Part shown: positions 3,939 through 54,778 of the stretch, piece by piece
Position numbering within the stretch: position 1 is the first letter of the stretch
Layout: each line of letters opens with the position of its first letter
Assembly (NCBI RefSeq): GCF_043641665.1
Contig: NC_092193.1
Span: 4,182,001 to 4,246,000, forward strand
From: Enoplosus armatus
Lineage: Eukaryota > Chordata > Actinopteri > Centrarchiformes > Enoplosidae
Reading direction: 5' to 3'
DNA length: 64,000 nt
Made by a program: the position numbers and the translations under genes
The notes under the pieces: generated by a model
Told to the model about the DNA's origin: nothing
Database searches by the model: none
Seen by the model: the letters and a program-made list of their open reading frames with translations, nothing else

Positions 3939-4979
3939 TCAATACTTTGTTGATGCACCTTTGGCAGCAATTACAGCCTCAAGTCTTTTTGAATATGATG
4001 CCACAAGCTTGGCACACCTATCTTTGGGCAGTTTCACCCATTCCTCTTTGCAGCACCTCTCAAGCTCCATCAGGTTGGATGGGAAGCGTCGGCGCACAGC
4101 CATTTTCAGATCTCTCCAGAGATGTTCAATCGGATTCAAGTCTGGGCTCTGGCTGGGCCACTCAAGGACATTCACAGAGTTGTCCTGAAGCCACTCCTTT
4201 GATATCTTGGCTGTGTGCTTAGGGTCGTTGTCCTGCTGAAAGATAAACCGTCGCCCCAGTCTGAGGTCAAGAGCGCTCTGGAGCAGGTTTTCATCCAGGA
4301 TGTCTCTGTACTTTGCTGCATTCATCTTACCCTCTATCCTGACTAGTCTCCCAGTTCCTGCCGCTGAAAAACATCCCCACAGCATGATGCTGCCACCACC
4401 ATGCTTCACTGTAGGGATGGTATTGGCCTGGTGATGAGCGGTGCCTGGTTTCCTCCAAACGTGACGCCTGGCATTCACACCAAAGAGTTCAATCTTTGTC
4501 TCATCAGACCAGAGAATTTTGTTTCTCATGGTCTGAGAGTCCTTCAGGTGCCTTTTGGCAAACTCCAGGCGGGCTGCTATGTGCCTTTTACTAAGGAGTG
4601 GCTTCCGTCTGGCCACTCTACCATACAGGCCTGATTGGTGGATTGCTGCAGAGATGGTTGTCCTTCTGGAAGGTTCTCCTCTCTCCACAGAGGAACTCTG
4701 GAGCTCTGACAGAGTGACCATCGGGTTCTTGGTCACCTCCCTGACTAAGGCCCTTCTCCCCCGATTACTCAGTTTAGATGGCCGGCCAGCTCTAGGAAGA
4801 GTCCTGGTGGTTCCGAACTTCTTCCACTTACGGATGATGGAGGCCACTGTGCTCATTGGGACCTTCAAAGCAGCAGAAATTTTTCTGTAACCTTCCCCAG
4901 ATTTGTGCCTCGAGACAATCCTGTCTCGGAGGTCTACAGACAATTCCTTTGACTTCATGCTTGGTTTGTGCTCTGACAT
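3939..4979 (-). CDS. Tc1/mariner transposase, intact
   Basis: 346 residues, close to the usual 340 of Tc1 transposases, with no stop or frameshift. Residues 10-60 form the first helix-turn-helix of the paired-like DNA-binding region (SVDLRDRIVSRHKSGEGYRK), followed by an AT-hook-like RAGRPSK (63-69) and a second HTH to about 120. The catalytic triad is DD34E: D159 in WSDETKIELFG, D250 in QQDNDPKHT and E285 in SPDLNPIEHLW. The glycine-rich box KHGGGSIMLWGCF is at 192-204. It would cut and paste the element at TA sites. The stop codon (3939-3941) abuts the left inverted repeat, so the transcript would end inside the repeat, which holds AATAAA on the minus strand. Confidence 0.96.
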   Translation of the reverse strand: MSEHKPSMKSKELSVDLRDRIVSRHKSGEGYRKISAALKVPMSTVASIIRKWKKFGTTRTLPRAGRPSKLSNRGRRALVREVTKNPMVTLSELQSSSVERGEPSRRTTISAAIHQSGLYGRVARRKPLLSKRHIAARLEFAKRHLKDSQTMRNKILWSDETKIELFGVNARRHVWRKPGTAHHQANTIPTVKHGGGSIMLWGCFSAAGTGRLVRIEGKMNAAKYRDILDENLLQSALDLRLGRRFIFQQDNDPKHTAKISKEWLQDNSVNVLEWPSQSPDLNPIEHLWRDLKMAVRRRFPSNLMELERCCKEEWVKLPKDRCAKLVASYSKRLEAVIAAKGASTKY

Positions 4980-5140
4980 GCACTGTCAACTGTGGGACCT
5001 TATATAGACAGGTGTGTGCCTTTCCAAATCATGTCCAATCAACTGAATTTACCACAGGTGGACTCCAATTAAGCTGCAGAAACATCTCAAGGATGATCAG
5101 TGGAAACAGGATGCACCTGAGCTCAATTTTGAGCTTCATG

Positions 5141-41659: not shown

Positions 41660-41834
41660 CTACCTGCCGAAAATGTTCTCGTACTCCAGCAGTATTAGCT
41701 CCACTATCTGGTTCTGGTAGACCATGTGGATCGCCATGTTCAAGGTCTCCGTTTCAGGGCGCAGCAGCGTGGGGCCGAACACGATGGCCACGCTCTGGGT
41801 GGTCATGCGGTTTTCCTCACCGTAGTCGATCACC
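41660..41834 (-). CDS. arhgap12: arhgap12 last coding exon (RhoGAP end, stop)
   Basis: 175 nt including TAG at 41660-41662. It encodes ENRMTTQSVAIVFGPTLLRP and the C-terminal helix YQNQIVELILLEYENIFGR. The end matches the family's usual C terminus, so the gene is not truncated here. Confidence 0.97.
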
Positions 41835-44800
41835 CTGCAGGAACAAGGAAGAGTTAGACACAGCGTCAAATATAAAACTCCAAAGGGCTGAGAAAGTGGA
41901 AATAAACCCTGACAGGAACGTTTTTTCTCACACAAATACTTCATCAACCTGCCCCATAATGAGGGAACACAGTGCTCCCAGTCACAGAGTAGTAAGTAGA
42001 GACAAACATCATCTAAACTAATCTAAATAAATGGTATCATCTAAACAGACAACTGGACAGACTACTAAGATAATTTTTTGCAAGGCTGTAATTTTGGTCC
42101 CTGGTTAAACATCACTAAAGCTTTATAAAGGGATCATTTTATGGAGGTCTGCATTGGTGGAAAACACATTTCAATCTCTCATATCTCATCTCAAGTTAGT
42201 TCATCGTAATAATTTATCAAGTAAAAGTGCTGAACATTCTCTGGTTCCTGCCTCAGATATGTTAAATTGTTGCTTTTCTCCATTTGTATGAGTGTAAATT
42301 GAATATCTTTGACCTGCAGGTCGAACAAAACAAGACATATGTAGACGTCACTATGGGCTCTGGTACATTTCATGAGCTTATTTCACTACTTCTATAATTA
42401 ACAATTAAAATACTTGTCTGTAGCCCTAAACACACTGTTTTCATGTGTAGAAAATAGAGCCTATTCATTGTGATGTTGTATTAAAATTCTTGTGGCTTAA
42501 CCTCTGTTAAGAATGAGAAAAAGAAATCAATAAATTGCAGTGTTTTTCTTACTTCCTGAGGTGTTTGAAGAGAGCCTGCATGGTGTCGTGGTTGGGTTTG
42601 GGCAGCTGTCTGACCAGCTCTTTGATGGACTGAACTCGATGCTTGTAGTCTGGATTCTCTGCAGAACAGAAAACACGACATTTATCAAAGTCTGAGTGAA
42701 CAATCAGAACCATCGTAGGTTTCTCTTTTCAGTGCAACAACCATTTTACACTGTTTGACTGATGCATTGTTGTGTACCTTTATGCTAGTGCTAGTTTGTG
42801 GGATTGCAAAACATTTGGCGTTCACTTTCCCCTGGCTATGTTACCAGTACTTAATCACTAGGTAAGTGGTTTTCTATGTGGGGTGTGGGGTCCTCAGTGG
42901 TCCATGCAAGTTTCCATGAGCAAAACGAAGAAGAATTCCAACAAAATGATGGTTTGGGGGGTTTGCAGCAGTACATTTCCAGGCACAATCTTCTGCTTCT
43001 GAAGTAAAGAGGCTGACACCATGCTCAGTAATACAGACAGTGCATTCGCTTCGGACTGTGAGTTCATGCATGAATGAATACAGGTATCTGCGGTACAGCT
43101 GTATGAAACACGTACTGATGGAGCTGACAAAGTCGTGGAAGAGAGCGTAGGTGAAGAGAGGTTCCGGCAGCTCTCTGAAGTACATCTTTAAAGCTCCAGT
43201 GGTCACATGAATGTCCTCCCACTTCCCGTCTGCCAGGTTCACCTTCTCATCTGGACACAGGCAAACCCTTCAGTCAGAGTGCTATCCACAGACACTTACA
43301 GCAGCTAACGTGACCAGAAGAAACTGCCAGGACACTTCAAATAACCTTTCATTTTTCTCTGCATTGTTTTCTCTCAAATAATAATGAAGAGAAGCCGTTC
43401 CAGAAAGCAGTAACTTACCGTGATTGACGGCAAAGCGTAGTTTCTGTATGACAGCCAGGTTTCCACTGACTCTGTACAGCCCGTCTACACACAGACCTGC
43501 AGGGGATCATGGGAGGAAATCATTGTTCAGTAATATCTGCAAATAATTCTTATAGTTTGTTTTTATTTGCTTTGAGCACCAAAAGAGTTGAGTCAGCCAA
43601 AAGAAGACAGCACAGTGACTGTCAGCCACACCCTGTCTGACGCTATCTGTGTTATCATGAGGCAGTAAACTCCCACCCTTCTTTTACTGCAGGTAGATTC
43701 ATAGAAACTAGAACCAGTTCCTTATAACTCAGGTTAGGTAAAGTGACACATCTCTGAACCCACCGTTGTTCTCTACGTGGTCGATGCACATCTTGACAAA
43801 GCTCGGCACTGTGCTGTTCTCCCTGTAACACAAACTGGACAGACTGCAGCCGAACACCTGATCTGAAGACACAGAAAGACAAAAACACGGTCACAACAGC
43901 TTGAAGTCCTCGTTTTGTTGCAGTATGTGTTTTGTCAACACCTGCAGAACCTCCCTGTGCCTTATTACTTTCAATTAGAGATAAAAGAAAGGAAGCTTTT
44001 CTTTCTGTAGACCAAAAACTTCATAAGAAATATATAAAATTACTATAATTATACAACTTCAAAAAATGTTGTAGGACACACTGAATAAGAACAGGATATC
44101 ATTAAGTTTAGAGCAAATTGATTTATGTAAAGAAACTAACTAATCCAACGTATTTTTACAGTTTTGGTCTGTATAATGTTTGTGAGTGGATCTCTGGTAC
44201 CTTTGATGTATCCCTTATCTCTGACGGCCTGCAGGGTCGGACGGCGGGTCAGGAACTTCTTCAGCTTGTGTCTGGTCTTCTTGTTGTCGGAGCCGTCCAT
44301 GCTGGTGGAGGTCTTCATGGCTGCAGAGGAGAGATGGGACAGGACAGTGTTGTCCACCACTCGTCTCAACACGCTGATCGCCATGACTGCCGCTCAATGT
44401 TTTGAGGGAATGAAACTGATACGCAGTTGTTTTATAGGGTGAGTAGGACACATGAGGCGGACACGTGGCACTGAGCCAAACAGAAACTTTGTACTTTATG
44501 CTTTCATTTGTAGTCTTACATAATGTATGTACCCTGTTTTTGTCTTGCTATCATATTTGTTTTTTCCAATTTATTCAACTCTTTAATCTTTTGATGATGA
44601 TTTATTAACAGTTTTACTTGTTATGTTTATGTAGTACTTTGCTTTTTAAATACCACAGACATGGTATGTGTTAAACGCCATGAAACACCACACAGACCTC
44701 TGCCTTTCTTTGAGTCTCTGTGTTCTTTCTCCTTGTCCTGTTTCTCTGCACCAGGCGAGTCCGGCATGTCCTCTTCAATGGCCTCATCAGACTCCCAGGC

Positions 44801-47800
44801 CTAAGACACACACACGGAAATGAGATAGTGGTTGTAAAAATCTCTACTTGCTGCACCTTTGGACTGGCAGGAAAACAATAAACTTGATCTGTTGATTAAA
44901 AGTGAAGAAACCAACTTCAAACCATCCTCATTTTAATAGTTTTTCAAATTTTATGTCTGTTTCATTTAAATGTTCACAGTGAGTTGGGTGTCTGTTTAAC
45001 AGATGTTTAGTTTTATAGGGTGGCTAATTCAACGTCCAGCATTCCCTCTTCATTACCCTGCAAACAGCAAATATTTGTATTTATCACACTGTTGTTTATC
45101 TTCTCAGTTTGCCCCCAGTGGTTAAAATGAGAAGCTGGTGTCCAGTAGACATCAGACTTATTATATAAATATAAATATAAATATATAATAGCTAGCTCTA
45201 TGCTCTGACTGGGCCACTTTTTGTCAGTCCAATTTGGCAACACTGGCAGAGGCAGACATTTTGGGACTAGGTGAAGATGTTAGTCCTCACATGGGTGATG
45301 ATGGTGTCCTGCAGCACTCGGTACCAGTCGCTGACAACGGCGTCGTTATCTGACTGGATCAGCAGCTCTGTGCCCTGCCGAGTCTTCAGCTGCAGCCAGG
45401 AGAGACACAAAGTAATCAGTTCCAATCATCAGCTATGTAAACCGTCTTTATTGTTTGTTTGATTATTATTTATTATTTATTTATCAAGGGTGTTAACGGT
45501 TAGAAAGAAAAGGTGTGATTTTTTACATGAATATTTAGTGTTTTGGAACTAATCAAATCTTGTCTCAAATCAATCTCTTAATATGTCTGAACCTTTTAAT
45601 ATGTCTACACCTGAAGGACGTTTTGTTGGTATTTTCAGTACTTTCCTTTTAAAAAACACAAATACAGACATTGAGGAAGGACAAATAACCTCAACCTGAG
45701 CCCTCTCCCACCTCTAAAACGTGCTTCTTGCTGGACTTGTCCTTGGAAGCCCACTCCACCGAGCCGCCCCTCAGATCCACAGTGAACTCTGGTTTGGACT
45801 GACCGCCCCCAAACTGGACAGAGAGAGGAGACGAATCAAAGGAGGGCAGTTTAACACACAGAGGGCCTGTTCATATACTGTACGTCTTCAGCCTCGACCG
45901 TTCAACCATGCAACAGTTTGTGCACGAGACAAAATATGCCACTATAATAACGGAGGACATGTAAAGATAAAGATTCGCCTGTTCGCATTTTGTTGTACTG
46001 GGTTTTTGACTGTTTGGTGATGTTGTTGTGGAGCACAATGCCTCTTATGTCTGTCCTTAACTGTTGTTGTATGTGTCTGACAATTGCCACAGGTTAATAA
46101 TCAAAACGAACTGAAATACATGCATATAAATATCTTCCTCTCTTAATACGAATGCATGCGGGATTTAAATTCTCAAGATTTAGGAAAATGACCCAATGAC
46201 ACAATCAAACTTCATTACCATTTCTTTTACCTTGAGAGCTCATTAACTGCAGACAAAGCTTTGCAGAAACTAGATTTTCACATAAGCACGGGAGTCTGTT
46301 ACTAAACACTGTCACGCTCTGTCCGTGTAATCAGACAGCATGACCCCCCTACAGACCTCCACCTGACGAGCGCCTGACCTTTCTAACTTCTACACTTCCA
46401 AGAAAACAACTCTCTGATTAAACTTAGTGGTTCAACTCCATCCTGCCTTTTGAGGCAAAACAAACACTACCTAATATACCTGCCTATAATGTACAATAAA
46501 TATTAAAGTGAATCTAGATTTTTAGAGTGAATCAATTTAGCAAATAATGACACAGTAACATTGCTCCTAATCTTTGCCCCATGCCAGTGACTAATAACAC
46601 ACAGAGGAGTTGGGGTCAGAGCATGGCGGACAGGAGGGAGGTGGCATGCAGAGGAGGAGAGGAAGAAGCACACAAAAGGAAGGAGGAAGCACATACAGAG
46701 GAGGCTCTGTCAGGCCCAGAGCAGCCATAGGAGACAGCAGGACGTTTCTTAGCAGGCGGCCTCCAGTTACTCAACAGTGACAGGAGAAATTCAGGGAAGG
46801 AGCCACTGTGGTAGTATGGCTGCATGGAAGGATGGAGGGGGATGAAGACAAAGAAGATGATTGGGGGGGGGTGAAGCCAAAAGGTAAAGAGATGGAGGCA
46901 TGGAAAAAGAAGGACAATGAAACATCTAGAAGAGAGAAAAATTCAACCCCAACTCCCATCCAGTGACCTAAAAACCACTCAGAAACTTAAAGAAATACAC
47001 CTTCAGGCCTTGTGTTGGCAAACAAAAGTGGGCATTTCCTTAGTCAGTAATCAGAGAGGCTGTTTTAGGAACAGTGAAAAAGTCACTGCAGGAGGTCCTT
47101 TAACGTAAAAGAGCAGCACAACACAGACATGACAGACTCTCCCTCACCCTCTAATCAATCAATGAACAGTCACTCTTTCTTTGTACGTTTGTCGACACAG
47201 GATCTCGCTGTGCTGATGTGAGACAACGTCTTGTTTCAGGAAAAGGTTTCTGTCACTCACTCACCCAGCTCGTCCCGCCTCCTTGGCCTTTGGCAAATAG
47301 CAATGTGGATCCCTGGAGAACAGTCCAGGAAGAAGTCCAGTTCTTCCTGCAACAGACAATTGATTGCAATGTGTAAGTGTATAAGTATTAATGCTGACAA
47401 GTGTCAAAAGTAGACTTCTTAGTCTTATTTACGTTCCTAATTTAAATAATTCAGAAATGGCAAAGTTATTGTACAACTGCTTTGTGTTAAGACAACATTT
47501 GTATTTGAGAAGTTGGTCTTATTTTATACAATAGAAATGTTTTTATAGCTAACAGCTTAAATGAGATACTGAATAAAGTATCATTTGGGATTGGCACTGA
47601 AACTGAGGCATCATTCAGCAGTGGTGCAGTGCAACAGCAAGAGACTGACTCTCATCCCTACAGAAAAAAATCATGAGACAATGTTGGCCTAACACTTAGT
47701 GATAATGCTTTTATTTTCATTATTGTACTTTATTATACATTTGGCTTGAAGTTACCCTGTGGAGTTTTGTTTACTTTCACTGTGTCTCACAGCGTGGTAT

Positions 47801-50800
47801 CCCTGAGGTCCAACAAATACGCTGAATGCATTTTCCTTCCCCATAAAATATTTGCAAAGCAGCTCTTTAAAACTAACTCTGCACACCACTGTATAATGTC
47901 AACATTGGGCTGGTCTGAATCAGTGCTACTCACCGTACTTTCTTGCCGAACTCAGTGATCTTTGTCACGTTCAGAATGCCGCATTTTTCAGATGGCTGGA
48001 GAGAAAAAAGCATTAGGACTCACTCTGAAGAAGCAGATTACATACACATCAATCATTTAATCCATGATTAATAACCACTGCAGCATGGCAGGAGAGAAAG
48101 CTGCTGTCAAAACTGAATATTGTGTCACTGCATTGTAAAACACCACCACCACCACCACCACAAAACACCCCGCCACCAGAACAATCAAACAAAACAAAAC
48201 CGACTACTATCGTTATTCCCACTCAAGAAAGGCAAACACAAGAAAGTGCACAGAGTCATAAATTAGAAGAAAGGTAAAACCATGGATTCTTGGTTAAACT
48301 ACTCGTTCAGCATTTAGCCAGAGATCTTTGTTTCAGATTTTGAAACACAGGGACATTTCTGGGGGCGACACAGATGATCAATGATCAATAACAAACCCAA
48401 CGATGAATCCAAGCGCTCAAAAAAAGACTCATTTGTGATTCCAAGAAATTCCTCAGGCAATGTTACCCATCAGCACTGCTTATTAACAGGGAATCTACAC
48501 AGGCTCAAGGTCTAATTTACTCTCTTACTGCAACTTTATTTCTGCTGAATACTGTTTAAGATAAACATCTTTATTCCGATGTAATTGTGTACCGGGAAAC
48601 AATCCTTTTCAAAACTTTTCTCTCTTTGTTTCCAGATTTTCCAAACCAGTGTAGAAACCCTGCAATAATCTGCAACATGTGCCAAGTTAAACCCCTGCAG
48701 GACAGAGCCTAGGGGGTGGTGAGGAGGCGAGGGGTGAGTACTAACAGAGGACGGGGACTTGGGAGACGAAGGGCAGGAGTCAGAGTCAGGAGAGGGGGGC
48801 TTGGGGCTCAGAGGAGCGTCCTAGTGAGGAGACATGAATGAAAAAACAACACTGTCACATCGGCTAACAACAGAAGGTTAATGAGAAGATGATGAGAGGT
48901 TAAGGAGACAGCTCAACGAGTGTGATGGCAATTAGCAGTGAGATTATAACGCTGCGTGCTGCGCGTCGAGTACCTCTGTGACATCCAGGAGGCGCAAATG
49001 GATTATTAATTAGATGTGGAGGCAGGTATTTATCACAATGCCCATGCTAGTACTACAAATTACTTCATCTTCAGCATTCCTGAAAATAAATCATTTCTGT
49101 ATCGCTGTGGCCAAACCCTCAAATATAGAAGTTCATCAAGTTCATGATTAAATGTTCAGCTTCTTGGTGGAATGATTCAAATGAAAAAGGCTCAATCAGC
49201 TCAGGGAATCAGGCAAGAACAGCAGGGATGTAATAATTACTCCTGCTGTGTGATCATTATCATGCATGCGATTGTCTGCTTGCATTAAGGCACTGATTGG
49301 TCGGTCTGACAGGCTACTGACTTGGTGTCTGTATGGGTGTAGGCGGGCAGAGCCTGTGCGGAAACGCCTGGTTTTTAACAGCCGCTGCAAAGCAACCAAT
49401 CTACAACTGAGACTCTGGACTCAATAATAATACAGTAATACATCTTACCAGTGAACACATCACATAACAACCGCATCTGGAACAAACTCATTCAGTACAG
49501 TAGGCTTTTAAGTCCATACACAGGTAAAATAGAAAACATTAAGCACTTAAATTGATTATAAAATGTAATTTTACTAGCAGTGATATTAAGTAACTAACAG
49601 TGGAGCGTCAGTCTTTAGTTTGCAGATTTGGTTGTCAGACCTTGTCGTTGGGATCTTGGACGTAGGCGCTGTGTCTCCACTTGGTCAGGACGATGGGCTC
49701 CACGTGTTTCCTGTCCAGGCTGCGACTCTTTGGAGCATCTCCGGACGGCTGAGGAGGGGAGAGGTTGTACTGGACGGAGGGAACAGGAAATCATTCTTTA
49801 TCAGTATACTTTTAATTTCACCAAATGCAAATGTATACACATAAGGCTTTTCACCTGAATATAACAAGTATTCATCCTCAGTTATAACTGAATATGTGTT
49901 ACTGCCAATAGTTAACATGATGTTACAACTGAACATTAACCTTATAAGTCATAATCACAAAGTGAGGCTGCAACAAATGTAAGCACAGCATCCCTATTAG
50001 AAGAACTCATCTACTGGTAACAAATAACAAATCACACTATAATATCTCCTAAAGTGCAGAGACTGAGCTCCTCGTCTTCAGAATATTTCAGTGCTCAAAC
50101 TAAATAGATTTTCTTAACTGTTAACAACTTTATTTATATATTTCATTCATAATTTCAGTAATGTACCAAGAGAAATGCCATGTCAGTGTCTCTTTGTGGT
50201 CTTGGACTGATTGTCAGACCAAAAAAGAAACTTGAAGGGGCTGAGAAAGTAACTTATCCACAATGAAAACAGTCATTAGTTGCAGCCCACGTCACTCACT
50301 GGAGTTACTCTCTCATCTCTTTGTAAAACAGCCAGATTGATAACTGAGCATGAGTACGTTGTAATCAGTTTCACTGATGTCACATCACATATTTTAGTGT
50401 TGCCTGTCATAATGAGGATTGCTACAGAGTCTTACCTTTGGCAGCTCCCATTCTGACCTCGAACCATCTGCACTGTAGTAATACGGTCTGCCCTGGTCAT
50501 CAACGTGTTTTAACCACTGGTGGTACACAGACAGGAGAAACACAAGGCTCATTAGTGTGAGTCCTGACACGTTACTTTACATTAAAGCATTTGTGCAAAA
50601 ACATCAAACCTACTGACAAACAGACAAACTTCAATTTTAGTGTTTTTTTTTCATCATATGAAATGTCACAAATAGGTCATACCTGTGTTTTTTCATCTGT
50701 ATGGACCAACATCAAAATTTCATTTCACATAAATGTAAATTATGTCACATTTCTTTGTATTTATACAATCCTAATCCTTTCTCTAGCAAAGGTAATCATT

Positions 50801-52821
50801 CTCGTGTTGTTGTGTTACAACTCTGCCTAATCAGTGTGGAGGAAACATTTGAGTCGTGTTCTACACGTGGAAATTTGACCATAAATCAACCCAAACTCCG
50901 CTCCCATGCATTCCCAGGAATCCCCACAGTAAAGAGGTAGCAGATCAGCCCCCTGCAGCTGGTACCTTCTCATTAGTATAGTCGCTGACGTACAGCGTGT
51001 GGCCTTGCTCGTCCATCTCCTCCGACCAACCACGCGGTGGCGAGCCATACTGACTGTCTGACTGGCTAGAGTAGGTACTGAAGCAGGTGTCCTCCGACGA
51101 CAGAGGCTGGAGTCGACCAATGGAGAGCGAGAGGAAGGGAAGGAAAGACGGCGAGAGCGAGAGAGGAGTGGTCTACCATAGGTGCCAAGAGAGGGGGAGA
51201 GAGAAGAGAGGAGAGAGAGAAGAGGGCATCTTTCACCATGGAGTCAGAGAGGAGAGAAGACAGTCATGCACCCAGAATCAAAAAATCATCAGAAACTGCC
51301 CAACACCACTTTAATACAGTAAAGAGAACCAGAAGACCCATCACAGAGATACAAGTCACTACTGTTCATGCTTGATTTTGGGACAGTATGACGTAAATCT
51401 GAAGGTAGCTGCTGAATAAACGAAGTGACAGTGACTGCTTTCTGCCTGTAGGTGGCAGTGTGGTACAGCCATTTAATGAAACAGAGGCTGACTCAAAATC
51501 AGAGATGACTCCCAAATGATTCAGGCTAATCTGGTATGTCACCAAGTGTGTGTGTGTGTATTTGTGTGAGAGTTGATCATAAGAAATATATAGAGTAAAC
51601 TGTAATAATGTCCACAAAGCAAAAGGCTGCATGTGTTTTTTAGTCAAGTTATTCTGGTGAGGGTGTGTGATCAAGCCTGATGTCAGGAAGAAAAAAAAAC
51701 AAAACAACTTTCATTTTCTCTGAGATGTTTTCTGTCTGACGATTCAGATCTCCTCTAACAATCTGTCAGTGCAGAAAGAACAGTTTTGCAGATGCCTCGC
51801 TCTGCCTGCATGCGCAGCACTGTTAATCAGCAGGCAGTCACAATATGTGCCGGCATGCCGCATTCGTTATCTATTTAATACCTGGCTCTGACTCATGATG
51901 CTGATGACACAAGTGTTTCAGCTCTTGTTATTCTATTCTTGTGAGAACCAGTTTTAGTTTAGACTGACAACCTTTTTTGCGAAGTCAGGTCATTTTGGCC
52001 GACCTTCACCTGTTCGCTGGTTTGGTTCAAGAGTAATACTTTCAATTTACTTTGTTAAAGTCGTGATTTCTGAATTCATTAAATCAAATAATTAGGTTTG
52101 AAAGGTTAAAAGCCAATATATACTTTGTTATAAACCTTCAGACAGGAGGGGAGATCTGTGTCACACCTGCTTTCTGCAGTGATTGACCAGGTGTTCAAAT
52201 GTGTGAAATGTCAAAGGCCTAACTCTATTTCTTCACATTTCTAAAATTCCTACATGCTCCACAGTTAGTGTTTACACCTGAGCTGCACTGATTACATCTG
52301 TGTTTGCTGTCATGGAGGGGAGGTGTGCTTTCAGTGAACAGGATCGAAATCTGTTCAAAATTGTGAAATTCGCATTGGCTCAGCTGGTTTCAATAATTTC
52401 AGTAGCTTTTCTTTTTATCTCTTGTATCGACGAGTACCTGTAGCATTATACGTTTTAAATTATAAGGAAGTTCCTCATAAAGATAGCTGTAAAATAATGT
52501 GTACGTACGTCTGCGTGTGTTTCATTGAAACCCTTTGCACATGATCTGTACCTCAGAGCTCTCTCCTGCACTGTGGCTCTCTCCTCTGGAGCTCCCGGTG
52601 CTGGTGTCTCTGGCTCGGGGCGGCTTCCAGGTCCTTTCCTGGGTGGAGCGGTTGTAGTAGAAGTGCCTGCCGTTCTGGTCCTTGAAGGTCTCCCAGTCGC
52701 CCAGCACATGGAGGGGGGAGCCGGAGGGGTAAGGGGGCAGGTTGGTTTGGGTGATCTTCAGTTCCTGGAGGTTGGTGTAGACGGGCGACTCGGAACGACC
52801 CTGGCCTGATGAAGATACCGT
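41660..52821 (-). CDS. arhgap12: ARHGAP12, Rho GTPase-activating protein 12 (5'-partial, 16 exons)
   Basis: Sixteen minus-strand exons with GT-AG borders join to 1836 nt, that is 611 codons plus TAG, with every phase matching. Counting from the first visible exon, WW1 is near residues 41-69 (W43, W65), WW2 near 138-164 (W138, W160), the PH domain near 229-340, a basic segment near 386-404, and RhoGAP 415-611. The RhoGAP arginine finger is R456 in GLYRVSGN; the RELPEPL helix (499-505) and N541 of LPKPNHD are also present. The family switches off Rac/Rho GTPases at cell junctions and the actin cytoskeleton; that is family knowledge. Domain order and the WW2 sequence point to ARHGAP12 rather than ARHGAP27, ARHGAP15 or ARHGAP9. 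Human ARHGAP12 is about 846 residues, so roughly the first 235, including SH3, lie outside the window. I cannot say which teleost paralogue (a or b) this is. Confidence 0.95.
42180..42420 (-). repeat. Dispersed repeat family A, copy in arhgap12 intron
   Basis: Contains GAACATTCTCTGGTTCCTGC, GTAAATTGAATATCTTTGAC and GACGTCACTATGGGCTCTGG. Lies in the 718-bp last intron. Confidence 0.7.
42553..42658 (-). CDS. arhgap12: arhgap12 exon 15 in window (RhoGAP)
   Basis: 106 nt, phase 1 to 2, donor gtaaga. It encodes VQSIKELVRQLPKPNHDTMQ followed by ALFKHLR, including the conserved Asn of the RhoGAP fold. Confidence 0.96.
43116..43250 (-). CDS. arhgap12: arhgap12 exon 14 in window (RhoGAP)
   Basis: 135 nt, phase 1 to 1. 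It encodes WEDIHVTTGALKMYFRELPE followed by PLFTYALFHDFV. The K495 and R499 positions typical of RhoGAP are kept. The donor is gtacgt. Confidence 0.96.
43419..43496 (-). CDS. arhgap12: arhgap12 exon 13 in window (RhoGAP arginine finger)
   Basis: 78 nt, phase 1 to 1, donor gtaagt. It encodes GLYRVSGNLAVIQKLRFAV. R456 is the arginine finger that completes the GTPase active site, and it is intact, so the GAP should be catalytically competent. Confidence 0.97.
43764..43862 (-). CDS. arhgap12: arhgap12 exon 12 in window (RhoGAP start)
   Basis: 99 nt, phase 1 to 1. It encodes DQVFGCSLSSLCYRE and VPSFVKMCIDHVE, the first RhoGAP helices. The donor is gtgggt. Confidence 0.96.
44201..44320 (-). CDS. 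arhgap12: arhgap12 exon 11 in window (basic segment before RhoGAP)
   Basis: 120 nt, phase 1 to 1. The acceptor is tctcctctgcag. It encodes the conserved KKFLTRRPTLQAVRDKGYIK, a polybasic stretch just ahead of RhoGAP. The reading frame stays open through the acceptor to an upstream ATG at 44382-44384, which allows use as an alternative first exon. Confidence 0.95.
44201..44384 (-). CDS. Candidate alternative first exon of arhgap12 (RhoGAP-only isoform)
   Basis: An ATG at 44382-44384 (context GTCATGG) opens 21 new codons, MAISVLRRVVDNTVLSHLSS plus A, then runs without interruption through the normal exon-11 acceptor into AMKTSTSMDG and the RhoGAP region. The product would be about 258 residues: a polybasic segment plus a complete RhoGAP domain, without WW or PH. 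An in-frame TGA lies four codons upstream. Both candidate first exons begin MA and carry LRR near the start. The alternative is that the open frame across the pyrimidine tract is accidental. Confidence 0.5.
44385..44467 (-). promoter_or_regulatory. Candidate TATA promoter P2 inside arhgap12 intron
   Basis: Minus-strand order: CACGTG E-box (44462-44467) followed by TCCGCCTCA, then TATAAAA (44430-44436), then CTCAAAACATTGAGCGG (44390-44406), then the ATG at 44384. The TATA box lies 46 bp upstream of the ATG, which leaves room for a short 5' leader of roughly 15-20 nt. The intron that holds all this is only 377 bp. Confidence 0.5.
44698..44800 (-). CDS. arhgap12: arhgap12 exon 10 in window (acidic linker)
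   Basis: 103 nt, phase 0 to 1. It encodes an acidic then basic linker (SDEAIEEDMPDSPG, then a K/E-rich run) between PH and RhoGAP. The donor gtctgt is weak. The next intron, only 377 bp, contains the candidate internal promoter at 44385-44467. Confidence 0.92.
45291..45389 (-). CDS. arhgap12: arhgap12 exon 9 in window (PH domain end)
   Basis: 99 nt, 33 codons, phase 0-0, donor gtgagg. It encodes the last PH strand and the C-terminal helix, with the invariant PH tryptophan at W329 (SDWYRVLQ). Confidence 0.95.
45712..45813 (-). CDS. arhgap12: arhgap12 exon 8 in window (PH domain)
   Basis: 102 nt, 34 codons, phase 0-0. It encodes the mid-PH segment PEFTVDLRGGSVEWASKDKS followed by SKKHVLE. The acceptor is a CT-rich tract ending in CAG and the donor is gtggga. 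Confidence 0.95.
47265..47346 (-). CDS. arhgap12: arhgap12 exon 7 in window (PH domain)
   Basis: 82 nt, phase 2 to 0, donor gtgagt. It encodes KNWTSSWTVLQGSTLLFAKG, the typical second and third PH strands. Confidence 0.95.
47934..47995 (-). CDS. arhgap12: arhgap12 exon 6 in window (PH domain start)
   Basis: 62 nt, phase 0 to 2, donor gtgagt. It encodes the first PH strand, KCGILNVTKITEFGKKV, and the last codon (R) is split with the next exon. Confidence 0.95.
48141..48162 (+). repeat. (CAC)n microsatellite
   Basis: Seven CAC/ACC units within an arhgap12 intron. Confidence 0.9.
48746..48820 (-). CDS. arhgap12: arhgap12 exon 5 in window (Pro/Ser-rich cassette)
   Basis: 75 nt, 25 codons, phase 0-0. 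It codes for a low-complexity Ser/Pro segment (LSPKPPSPDSDSCPSSPKSP) with several SP sites, just before the PH domain. The donor gttagt is non-canonical at +3. Because it is symmetric with a weak donor, it is a likely cassette exon. Confidence 0.85.
49641..49748 (-). CDS. arhgap12: arhgap12 exon 4 in window (linker)
   Basis: 108 nt, 36 codons, phase 0-0. It encodes the conserved linker with KSRSLDRKHVEPIVLTKWRH. The donor gtctga is weak. The acceptor is a good pyrimidine tract ending in CAG. Confidence 0.93.
49963..50292. repeat. Dispersed repeat family A, copy with both ends
   Basis: Begins GAGGCTGCAACAAATG and ends CATTAGTTGCAGCCC, so the ends are inverted copies of each other. The interior holds GTCTTGGACTGATTGTCAGACC. 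It lies in the arhgap12 intron between 49749 and 50435. Confidence 0.6.
50436..50516 (-). CDS. arhgap12: arhgap12 exon 3 in window (WW2 core)
   Basis: 81 nt, 27 codons, phase 0-0, with a strong gtaaga donor. It codes for a complete WW core from W138 through PYYYSADGSRSEW to ELPK. This is the stretch that most clearly identifies ARHGAP12. Confidence 0.95.
50966..51106 (-). CDS. arhgap12: arhgap12 exon 2 in window (pre-WW2 linker)
   Basis: 141 nt, 47 codons, phase 0-0. A Ser-rich linker (SSQSDSQYGSPP) leads into a WW-like segment from W117. The donor gtacca is weak, which makes alternative use possible. Confidence 0.93.
51121..51240 (+). repeat. GA-rich tract in arhgap12 intron
   Basis: Purine-rich stretch with GGAGAG and GAGAGAGAAG units just upstream (gene sense) of exon 2. 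The minus strand is a long pyrimidine tract. Confidence 0.7.
52552..52821 (-). CDS. arhgap12: arhgap12 exon encoding WW1 (first visible exon)
   Basis: 270 nt, 90 codons, phase 0-0. It starts after a polypyrimidine CAG acceptor and ends at GAG|gtacag. It holds the SPVYTNLQELK segment and the first WW domain (W43 and W65, with the YYN core and WKPPR end). The previous exon is either the SH3 exon outside the window or the candidate alternative first exon at 54582-54671. Confidence 0.95.
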
Positions 52822-53439
52822 CTGAAGGGGAGAAAGAAAGAGAGAGAGGTGGAACTGTGAGTCGTGAGTGGATTGAAGTCTGTTATATAATCAGGGAAGA
52901 GTTCCTCGACTGTGATGGGCCATGATGTAAGAAATTCACAGCTTTCAGTGTAAATCAACAGCTGCACCTGCAAGCTGGTGGACGCTTCCATTTAAAACAG
53001 TCTTTGAGCATACATGAAACACCTCAACCACCTAATCTTTGCAGTGTTTGTGCTGAACACCGAGTGGCATTTGAGCATGGAGGAAATGGCCGAAATGTCA
53101 AATAACTATCTGTAGTTGAAGCTGACATAGCCGTTGTTGATCATAGAGGAGCAGAGAATTGAATGAACTCAGAGGAGGAAGACAGGGGAAGGAAGCGTCG
53201 TTATATAACTGCGAGTGGCTAGGAAATAAGGAAGTAAAACTGACGATGCATCCTGGACAGTTTGTCCAGGCTCATCCTTACAGCTGTGAATTAAGACTTT
53301 TTTTCTATAGAAAAAAACAAAAAGATACAAGTACAGGTATTGCATTAAATTCAGATCCACAAAGTAGTACATCGAAATAGCATAATTATTTGTTTTTTTA
53401 TTTATTTTGGGGCCCGACTATACTATTTCATTAGAATGT

Positions 53440-53695
53440 TAGTACTTAAAGGGCAGCTATCGAGGTATATATAGATATATATATCTGCTGGTCATCATGA
53501 ACAATTACTGTCAGAAAATATTGAAAAACCATATTCAGTTTATTATAATGTAAGACAAGCAACATATTGTCATATTTGAGATGCTGGAACCACCAAATGT
53601 TTGCCATTTTTGCTTGAACAAACGATTGAATGATTATCAAAATAGTTGCCAATTAATTTTCTCTCGAATGACGGTCGATTAAATTACTAACAATT
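53440..53695 (+). repeat. Dispersed repeat family A, copy in arhgap12 intron 1
   Basis: Contains GTCAGAAAATATTGAAAAAC, CATATTCAGTTTATTATAAT and GAACAAACGATTGAATGATT. Same orientation as copy 1. Confidence 0.65.
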
Positions 53696-54019
53696 TCACT
53701 CAATAAAATATTTTCTAAAGGAATGCCTTCAGTATGGATTGATAGCAAACCACTAGCTTAGGATGACTTTCTTAAATGATAAACTCTCATTTCAGAACAA
53801 AAATCTTCATGTTGTTCCTTAAAGTAAAAAGAGGAAGTCTCTGCAGAGAGTAAAGACTGATAGAGTGAAATAAGCTGATGAAAGTGGGTATGAATTACAA
53901 CACTATTGACAAGTGAACAAAAGAAAGTTATTTCCTGCCTCCAGTTGACGGACAACATTTCCAGGCTGTGGTGCAGCCAGCATGCTGCCTCTAATGACAG
54001 AGCATCCTTCTTCAAAACC

Positions 54020-54290
54020 CTGACGCTCGACTGATCCAGTCAATGGGCTGCTTGTCATGATTATTTCATGCTGGCATTACAAAGACGCTGCCTGGCTGCA
54101 GAGCGACAGGGTAGAGATAGTCATAAATAATGCCAGTGCCCCAAGGCCTCCTAACACTGGCTCTGTGATGTTTTTATTGCACAGGGATCAATAGGGATGA
54201 AATATGCAGGAGCCGAGCAAACAGCTGGAGGTGCCCACAAGAGTCGAATATTCAGTGGACTAGAAGAAGCCTGAGAAGCGTGCTGCGTTC
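54020..54290. other. Candidate conserved intronic enhancer
   Basis: Dense unique sequence with TCATAAATAATGCC, GGGATCAATAGGGATGAAAT and AGTGCCCCAAGGCC. It lies 0.3 kb downstream (gene sense) of the candidate alternative first exon. Inferred from appearance only. Confidence 0.25.
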
Positions 54291-54581
54291 AATATGTATC
54301 ACAGCACGACACCATAAAAGGTGGAGAGTGCATATATTATACATAATATATATATGTTACATAATTTACTGTAGTTTCTTCTACCTGTTTAAAAAGTCTT
54401 GAGAAGACAGCGGTAGCCAGAAAGTCACAGGTTGGACAGCTCAGACAAAACAGGGTACTTTCTTTGCAAGTCGAGCCATTAAGAAAAACACTAGACTTAA
54501 AGTAAAACTGCCTTTTACCAGAAAAGCTCTGCAATGCTATTGTGCAAAACTGTGAAGCTGTGAAAATGTGTAAATTATTAC

Positions 54582-54671
54582 CTCTGGCGGTGAGCAACTA
54601 GTGAACACATCGTCCTCTTCATGTATTGAAATTGCTCTAAAAAAGCTTCTCCTCAGACGGATCATTGCCAT
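54582..54671 (-). CDS. Candidate alternative first coding exon of arhgap12 (SH3-less isoform)
   Basis: An ATG in strong context (ACAATGG) opens 30 codons, MAMIRLRRSFFRAISIHEED followed by DVFTSCSPPE, and ends exactly at a GAG|gtaata donor in phase 0. The next exon downstream (52552-52821) starts in phase 0, so the splice keeps the frame and would give a 641-residue WW-WW-PH-RhoGAP protein lacking SH3. An in-frame TAA lies four codons upstream of the ATG and no acceptor precedes it, which fits a true first exon. The N terminus (LRRSFFRAIS) is basic. I do not recognise it from a described isoform. Transcript evidence is needed; the open frame plus phase match could be chance. Confidence 0.55.
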
Positions 54672-54778
54672 TGTCCCCGCTTAATATTTTGAGTTAAGGT
54701 GTCACTCTCTTACTGCATGCAGTGTTCACGGCTGACTCTGCTCTGTGCTCTTCCTGTATAATGCTGAGCGGACATGTG
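54672..54778 (-). promoter_or_regulatory. Candidate intragenic promoter P1 (upstream of 54671 ATG)
   Basis: On the minus strand the order is CACATGTCCGCTCA (E-box at 54773-54778), a TATA-like ATTATA (54757-54762), then CTCAAAATATTAAGCGG (54677-54693), then the ATG. The E-box with TCCGC and the last block recur at the internal promoter P2. The TATA match is weak. Confidence 0.4.

Follow-up and report, generated by a model that had tools for sequence, protein, structure and literature searches.

The question raised by this locus is whether one gene carries two internal starts, and whether a short block of sequence shared by their leaders marks a duplicated promoter. It concerns a stretch of 64,000 nucleotides (nt) of Enoplosus armatus (contig NC_092193.1, positions 4,182,001 to 4,246,000 of the forward strand; the whole stretch is hereafter 'the window'), in which two ATGs some 10 kb apart on the minus strand of arhgap12 are preceded by nearly the same 17 nt. 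A first-pass annotation, made from the letters alone, had read the pair as duplicated or convergent promoters creating N-terminally trimmed isoforms. We consider it probable that two internal first exons of percomorph arhgap12, here called A (ATG at 44384) and B (ATG at 54671), yield N-terminally trimmed Rho GTPase-activating proteins, with independent origins and a 17-nt likeness that is coincidental or local.

The gene was identified as the percomorph copy of arhgap12 by Pfam and by an exon-by-exon protein match. Its spliced reading contains RhoGAP (PF00620), WW (PF00397), PH (PF00169) and the ARHGAP12 SH3–WW linker (PF16618), which places it in the ARHGAP12 family (SH3-WW-PH-RhoGAP), and every exon agrees with the annotated E. 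armatus ARHGAP12-like protein (P0141). The canonical SH3 start exon lies beyond the window, at window coordinate 83840, 29.2 kb upstream of the start at 54.67 kb; in the canonical protein of this species it stands where the B peptide would stand. The catalytic loop GLYRVSG, whose Arg we take to be the finger residue, is encoded within the window. At the upstream of the two starts, five features matter:

54582..54671, minus strand: alternative first exon B, coding portion of 30 codons, MAMIRLRRSFFRAISIHEEDDVFTSCSPPE; donor GTAATA at 54581, phase 0
54677..54693, minus strand: 17-nt block upstream of B
54755..54760, minus strand: TATACA, weakly TATA-like, at -89 of B, within the leader stretch readable in Thalassophryne
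54768..54778, minus strand: CACATGTCCGC, E-box-like, upstream of B
52552..52821, minus strand: WW exon, common splice target of B and of the canonical SH3 exon, phase 0

B is well supported, by its splice frame and by gene models of other fish, as a real and conserved alternative first exon. Its donor (GAG/GTAATA) joins the acceptor of the WW exon (CAG/ACG at 52821) in frame and in phase 0, so that a start downstream of the SH3 exon would give a protein that keeps WW, PH and RhoGAP and drops SH3. Among the 120 listed of 506 matches to a 70-residue B query, 20 proteins from 16 species cover the whole query, and these were compared with 3 canonical ones; in all 20, the B peptide replaces the SH3 exon and is joined to TVSSSG or similar, in species ranging from Batrachoidiformes (Thalassophryne) to pufferfish. 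B thus behaves as a first exon on two counts, an in-frame join to a constitutive downstream exon and the presence of the same exon in relatives. Sixteen of these models start at B's ATG, one (Mastacembelus) starts further upstream and retains it, and three from Thalassophryne start further upstream and lack B's MA start. A protein search of the genome found the B peptide as a single copy and reported no B exon in the arhgap12 ohnolog (L040).

Public gene models of related fish, many carrying the label of predicted isoforms, already include the exon, which is therefore not undescribed as such: predicted ARHGAP12(-like) isoforms of Morone saxatilis (X6), Perca fluviatilis (X13) and Takifugu rubripes (X4/X5/X7) share the B peptide and its WW junction, although these are gene models only and none of those compared for B shows A. 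The first-pass annotation knew of no description of such a pair, and a search within open-licence PMC papers found no published account of the A or B starts.

The downstream start differs in its architecture, and the features around it are as follows:

44322..44384, minus strand: A, 21 intronic codons, MAISVLRRVVDNTVLSHLSSA, continuing in frame into the following exon; seen in turbot (P0002) and Caranx (P0001)
44321..44697, minus strand: 377-nt intron holding the whole putative A promoter and start
44390..44406, minus strand: 17-nt block upstream of A, kept in Caranx
44430..44436, minus strand: TATAAAA at -52 of A
44457..44467, minus strand: CACGTGTCCGC, E-box-like, upstream of A
44201..44320, minus strand: exon with LKKFLTRRPTLQAVRDKGYIK, which we take to be the RPEL-like stretch of ARHGAP12, directly ahead of the RhoGAP domain
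41663..43863, minus strand: RhoGAP exons of arhgap12

From the ATG at 44384 the reading passes the acceptor unspliced and in frame into the exon ahead of the RhoGAP domain. A start at this place, inside the 377-nt intron, would yield a protein of about 258 residues consisting largely of an RPEL-like linker and RhoGAP, freed from steering by SH3, WW and PH; if the RPEL stretch is indeed LKKFLTRRPTLQAVRDKGYIK, it would come near an RPEL-GAP stripped of everything else. In an alignment, the ARHGAP12 fragment of known structure, 6gvc, covers residues 29-259 of the A isoform. At both ATGs, position -3 is a purine and position +4 is G. We regard A as a likely but unproven start, with moderate support that stays below that of B; that transcription begins there is our inference.

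The turbot protein P0002 begins exactly at A's ATG (MAISVLRRAVDNALVSRLSSAAMK), and the Caranx model P0001 runs through the A stretch (VPLLQNIERAVMAISVLVRVLDNTVLSHLSSAAMK). Measured as minimum base changes against the window DNA, the A codons differ by 5 of 63 positions in turbot (shuffled mean 30.7) and by 3 of 63 in Caranx (30.9). Within Caranx the leader and first codons are both conserved, with 3 of 27 changes in the leader, 0 of 15 in the block codons (QNIER) and 2 of 24 in the first eight codons. Control introns through which this model also reads give 33 of 63 (shuffled 33.8), 10 of 18 (9.5) and 9 of 24 (12.1), the last of these beside a donor.

Several observations weigh against A, and they feed an alternative account in which A is not a start: its leader and codons would owe their conservation to a role as intronic splicing signals or enhancer, the models of turbot and Caranx would be gene-prediction artefacts, and B alone would be real. 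No RefSeq-style isoform beginning at A occurs among the listed matches, and P0001 and P0002 are not of that kind; with the A query, among 120 listed of 488 matches, only these two give full cover at at least 87%. A joint search for both N-termini (E up to 10) returned 12 proteins for B and, for A, Caranx only, missing turbot. Tilapia P0006 starts part-way through the A peptide (MVDNTVLSRVSST, 3 of 36 minimum changes), so that among the few species compared the in-frame start is kept in turbot and Caranx and only partly in tilapia. A lies at most 64 nt from an acceptor, and a Met in frame ahead of an acceptor is not unusual, occurring at 5 of the 15 in the gene. The stretch adjoining A's acceptor is a polypyrimidine tract, where the ohnolog reads TLLSCPSSPVMK without any start; likeness beside the acceptor therefore says little for A. 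The ohnolog and three family members of the same genome (L041-L043) are without A. On the other side, Caranx agrees outside the polypyrimidine tract, in the codons and leader counted above, while its other introns do not; turbot, an independent record, uses the same ATG as its start; and TATAAAA stands at -52. We judge the account without A to be a serious possibility that nonetheless falls well short of an even chance.

No A-like start is conserved among these paralogs (L040-L043). The ohnolog, on contig C36, has a short intron (~130 nt) at the place of A, with a stop and without a Met. As a separate observation, the arhgap15-like L043 has an in-frame Met (ADMFSSSKLKHS) just ahead of the linker exon that resembles the start of an Astatotilapia arhgap15 record (P0100, 244 residues) and perhaps marks another short RhoGAP form.

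What, then, ties the two leaders together? The minus-strand words CTCAAAACATTGAGCGG (44406-44390) and CTCAAAATATTAAGCGG (54693-54677) are identical at 15 of 17 positions, and each begins 22 nt ahead of ATGGC, from which it is separated by five bases, just as the first-pass annotation described. The equal spacing of the in-frame stops that it also listed is correct, with TGA and TAA at -12, one at each start; these stops form part of the matched block and so are not independent evidence. The E-box-like words CACGTGTCCGC (from 44467) and CACATGTCCGC (from 54778) begin 83 and 107 nt upstream of their respective ATGs, against a quoted range of 83-106, so that both words and the first distance stand and the second is corrected. 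They are the only exact matches to CACRTGTCCGC on either strand in 94 kb of the locus, but a likeness of this order (10 of 11 within a 40-nt offset) was reached by 95 of 2,000 shuffles, which makes the 11-mer weak evidence. The peptides do both begin with MA followed closely by LRR (MAISVLRR in A, MAMIRLRR in B).

For the 17-mer, when the two 150-nt leaders were shuffled with dinucleotides kept, at least 15 of 17 was reached in 0 of 10,000 cases in register, in 2 of 10,000 within 5 nt of register and in 1 of 2,000 in any register. The window contains 671,716 pairs of minus-strand ATGs, of which 28 match at least this well over 17 nt in register, 14 of the 28 being simple repeats by eye; a laxer gapped local score was reached by 2.25% of 19,745 random ATG pairs. 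When the comparison is confined to the 17 strong-Kozak ATGs of the gene with at least 20 open codons (130 pairs), the A/B pair is the best (15) and the next reaches 12. The expected number of pairs as alike is ~0.005 (130 × 28/671,716), an arithmetic estimate that remains post hoc, the likeness having been what drew attention to the pair. By these counts such a likeness is improbable for the A/B pair, but the pair was picked for it.

These counts bear on a second alternative, in which the block is a genuine cis-element common to both starts (a core promoter, an initiator region or a leader element) that places A and B under one expression programme. In its favour are the absence of equals among in-register shuffles, the wide margin over the other candidate-start pairs, exact copies of the joint pattern only at A and B in the 580-Mb genome (although the pattern was derived from them), and an A block for which the Caranx codons reveal no change. 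With one mismatch allowed, the joint pattern occurs at 7 genomic sites against 6 for a reversed control, which argues against a general element, and the leader of the canonical start lacks the block (in register, its best 17-mer matches A at 8 of 17 positions and B at 7 of 17). At A, TATAAAA precedes the block by ~30 nt, which would place the block near the start of transcription, while B has no TATA-like word at that distance.

The evidence from relatives differs between the two starts. Judged from back-translated peptides, the A block is preserved in the one readable species and the B block looks diverged in both readable ones, so that the conservation which the first-pass annotation had proposed to look for holds at A, in Caranx, and appears to fail at B, in Mastacembelus and Thalassophryne. 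The models of these two fish read through B's leader and match that of the window with scores of 80 (shuffled at most 31) and 104 (at most 50), respectively, in 60 shuffles each; the best matches lie upstream of the block, and the block part requires gaps and mismatches. In the alignment, the Thalassophryne model has its start codon at the ATG within B's E-box (CACATGT), which puts the E-box inside the modelled transcript and speaks against the E-box and block as the core promoter of B. A promoter shared through the block is therefore unproven, and we think a common element rather unlikely.

A local duplication that carried a promoter with its first exon from one start to the other would explain the block, the order of the E-boxes and the MA..LRR likeness. 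Nothing past the 17 nt aligns, however, the best local alignment being exactly these 17 nt; the distances of the E-boxes (83 and 107) and of the TATA words (-52 and -89) are unequal; and no linking repeats were found in or around either place, each searched separately. The proposal of duplicated promoters finds no support here, as the leaders match only in the 17 nt and the 11-mer, and B is a spliced exon whereas A runs unspliced into the next one; we rate such a duplication as very improbable. Since no similarity extends outside the block and the exon architectures differ, A and B most likely arose independently, and the shared 17 nt are most likely a coincidence or local likeness. The readings weighed here overlap, in that the preferred one concerns the starts and two of its rivals concern the block.

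Three further candidates were set aside. A mobile element or repeat carrying the block is ruled out by the two exact copies in 580 Mb; a conserved leader stem-loop (CTCAA/TTGAG in the A block) would have its pairing broken by B's change, as judged by eye; and membrane or organelle targeting by both N-termini finds no echo in the helical moments of the 11 peptides, which are ordinary (114 to 465 of 2,000 shuffles as high). Separately, an exact 13-mer (CACCCTATAAAAC) containing A's TATA word occurs at 44429-44441 on the minus strand and again 581 bp upstream in the gene, at 45010-45022.

Elsewhere in the gene, the second WW exon can be extended upstream in frame (TTPLSLSPSFLPFLSLSIGRLQ, 51107-51170, minus strand); the extra stretch is coding in relatives and represents an alternative acceptor. 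The window also holds an unbroken Tc1-type transposase frame (3942-4985, minus strand; 339 residues from the Met used) with Sleeping Beauty HTH, Tc3 HTH and DDE_3 domains. Searches with Rfam at the gathering threshold and for tRNAs reported no known RNA family or tRNA in the window.

ARHGAP12 is named among RPEL proteins (PMC7599070), has GAP activity towards Rac1 (PMC6471118) and is recruited to phagocytic cups by phosphoinositide (PMC7890364). If A is real, SH3, WW and PH would be lost and the GAP domain kept, uncoupling the enzyme from phosphoinositide-driven recruitment; a minimal GAP module would then be expressed in percomorph fish, one that the ohnolog of this genome is unable to produce in the same way. 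It is tempting, though improbable in our estimation, to go further and suppose that two matched promoters tied by the 17-nt block step arhgap12 from the full protein through the SH3-less form (B) to a bare actin-sensing RPEL-GAP (A), so that a single cell type could exchange a Rac brake recruited to the membrane for a soluble counterpart. The roles of the short proteins are likewise inferred, and some fish gene models of the arhgap12 locus miss or extend such starts.

Comparable cases are found among RhoGAP genes. The short forms of alpha1- and beta1-chimaerin arise from intragenic starts that give RhoGAP proteins without an upstream domain; they lose other domains than the A and B forms of arhgap12, and no shared leader block is known in them. 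The block itself invites comparison with the clustered protocadherins, where alternative first exons of one locus have promoters with a common conserved sequence element (PMC8787164); that element is found at many promoters and has a known binding factor, whereas the arhgap12 block occurs twice, and one occurrence seems not to be conserved. A further comparison is mouse Dlc1, described as having isoforms that arise from alternative promoters and differ between tissues (PMC2839985): like arhgap12 it is a RhoGAP gene with alternative starts, although it belongs to another family.

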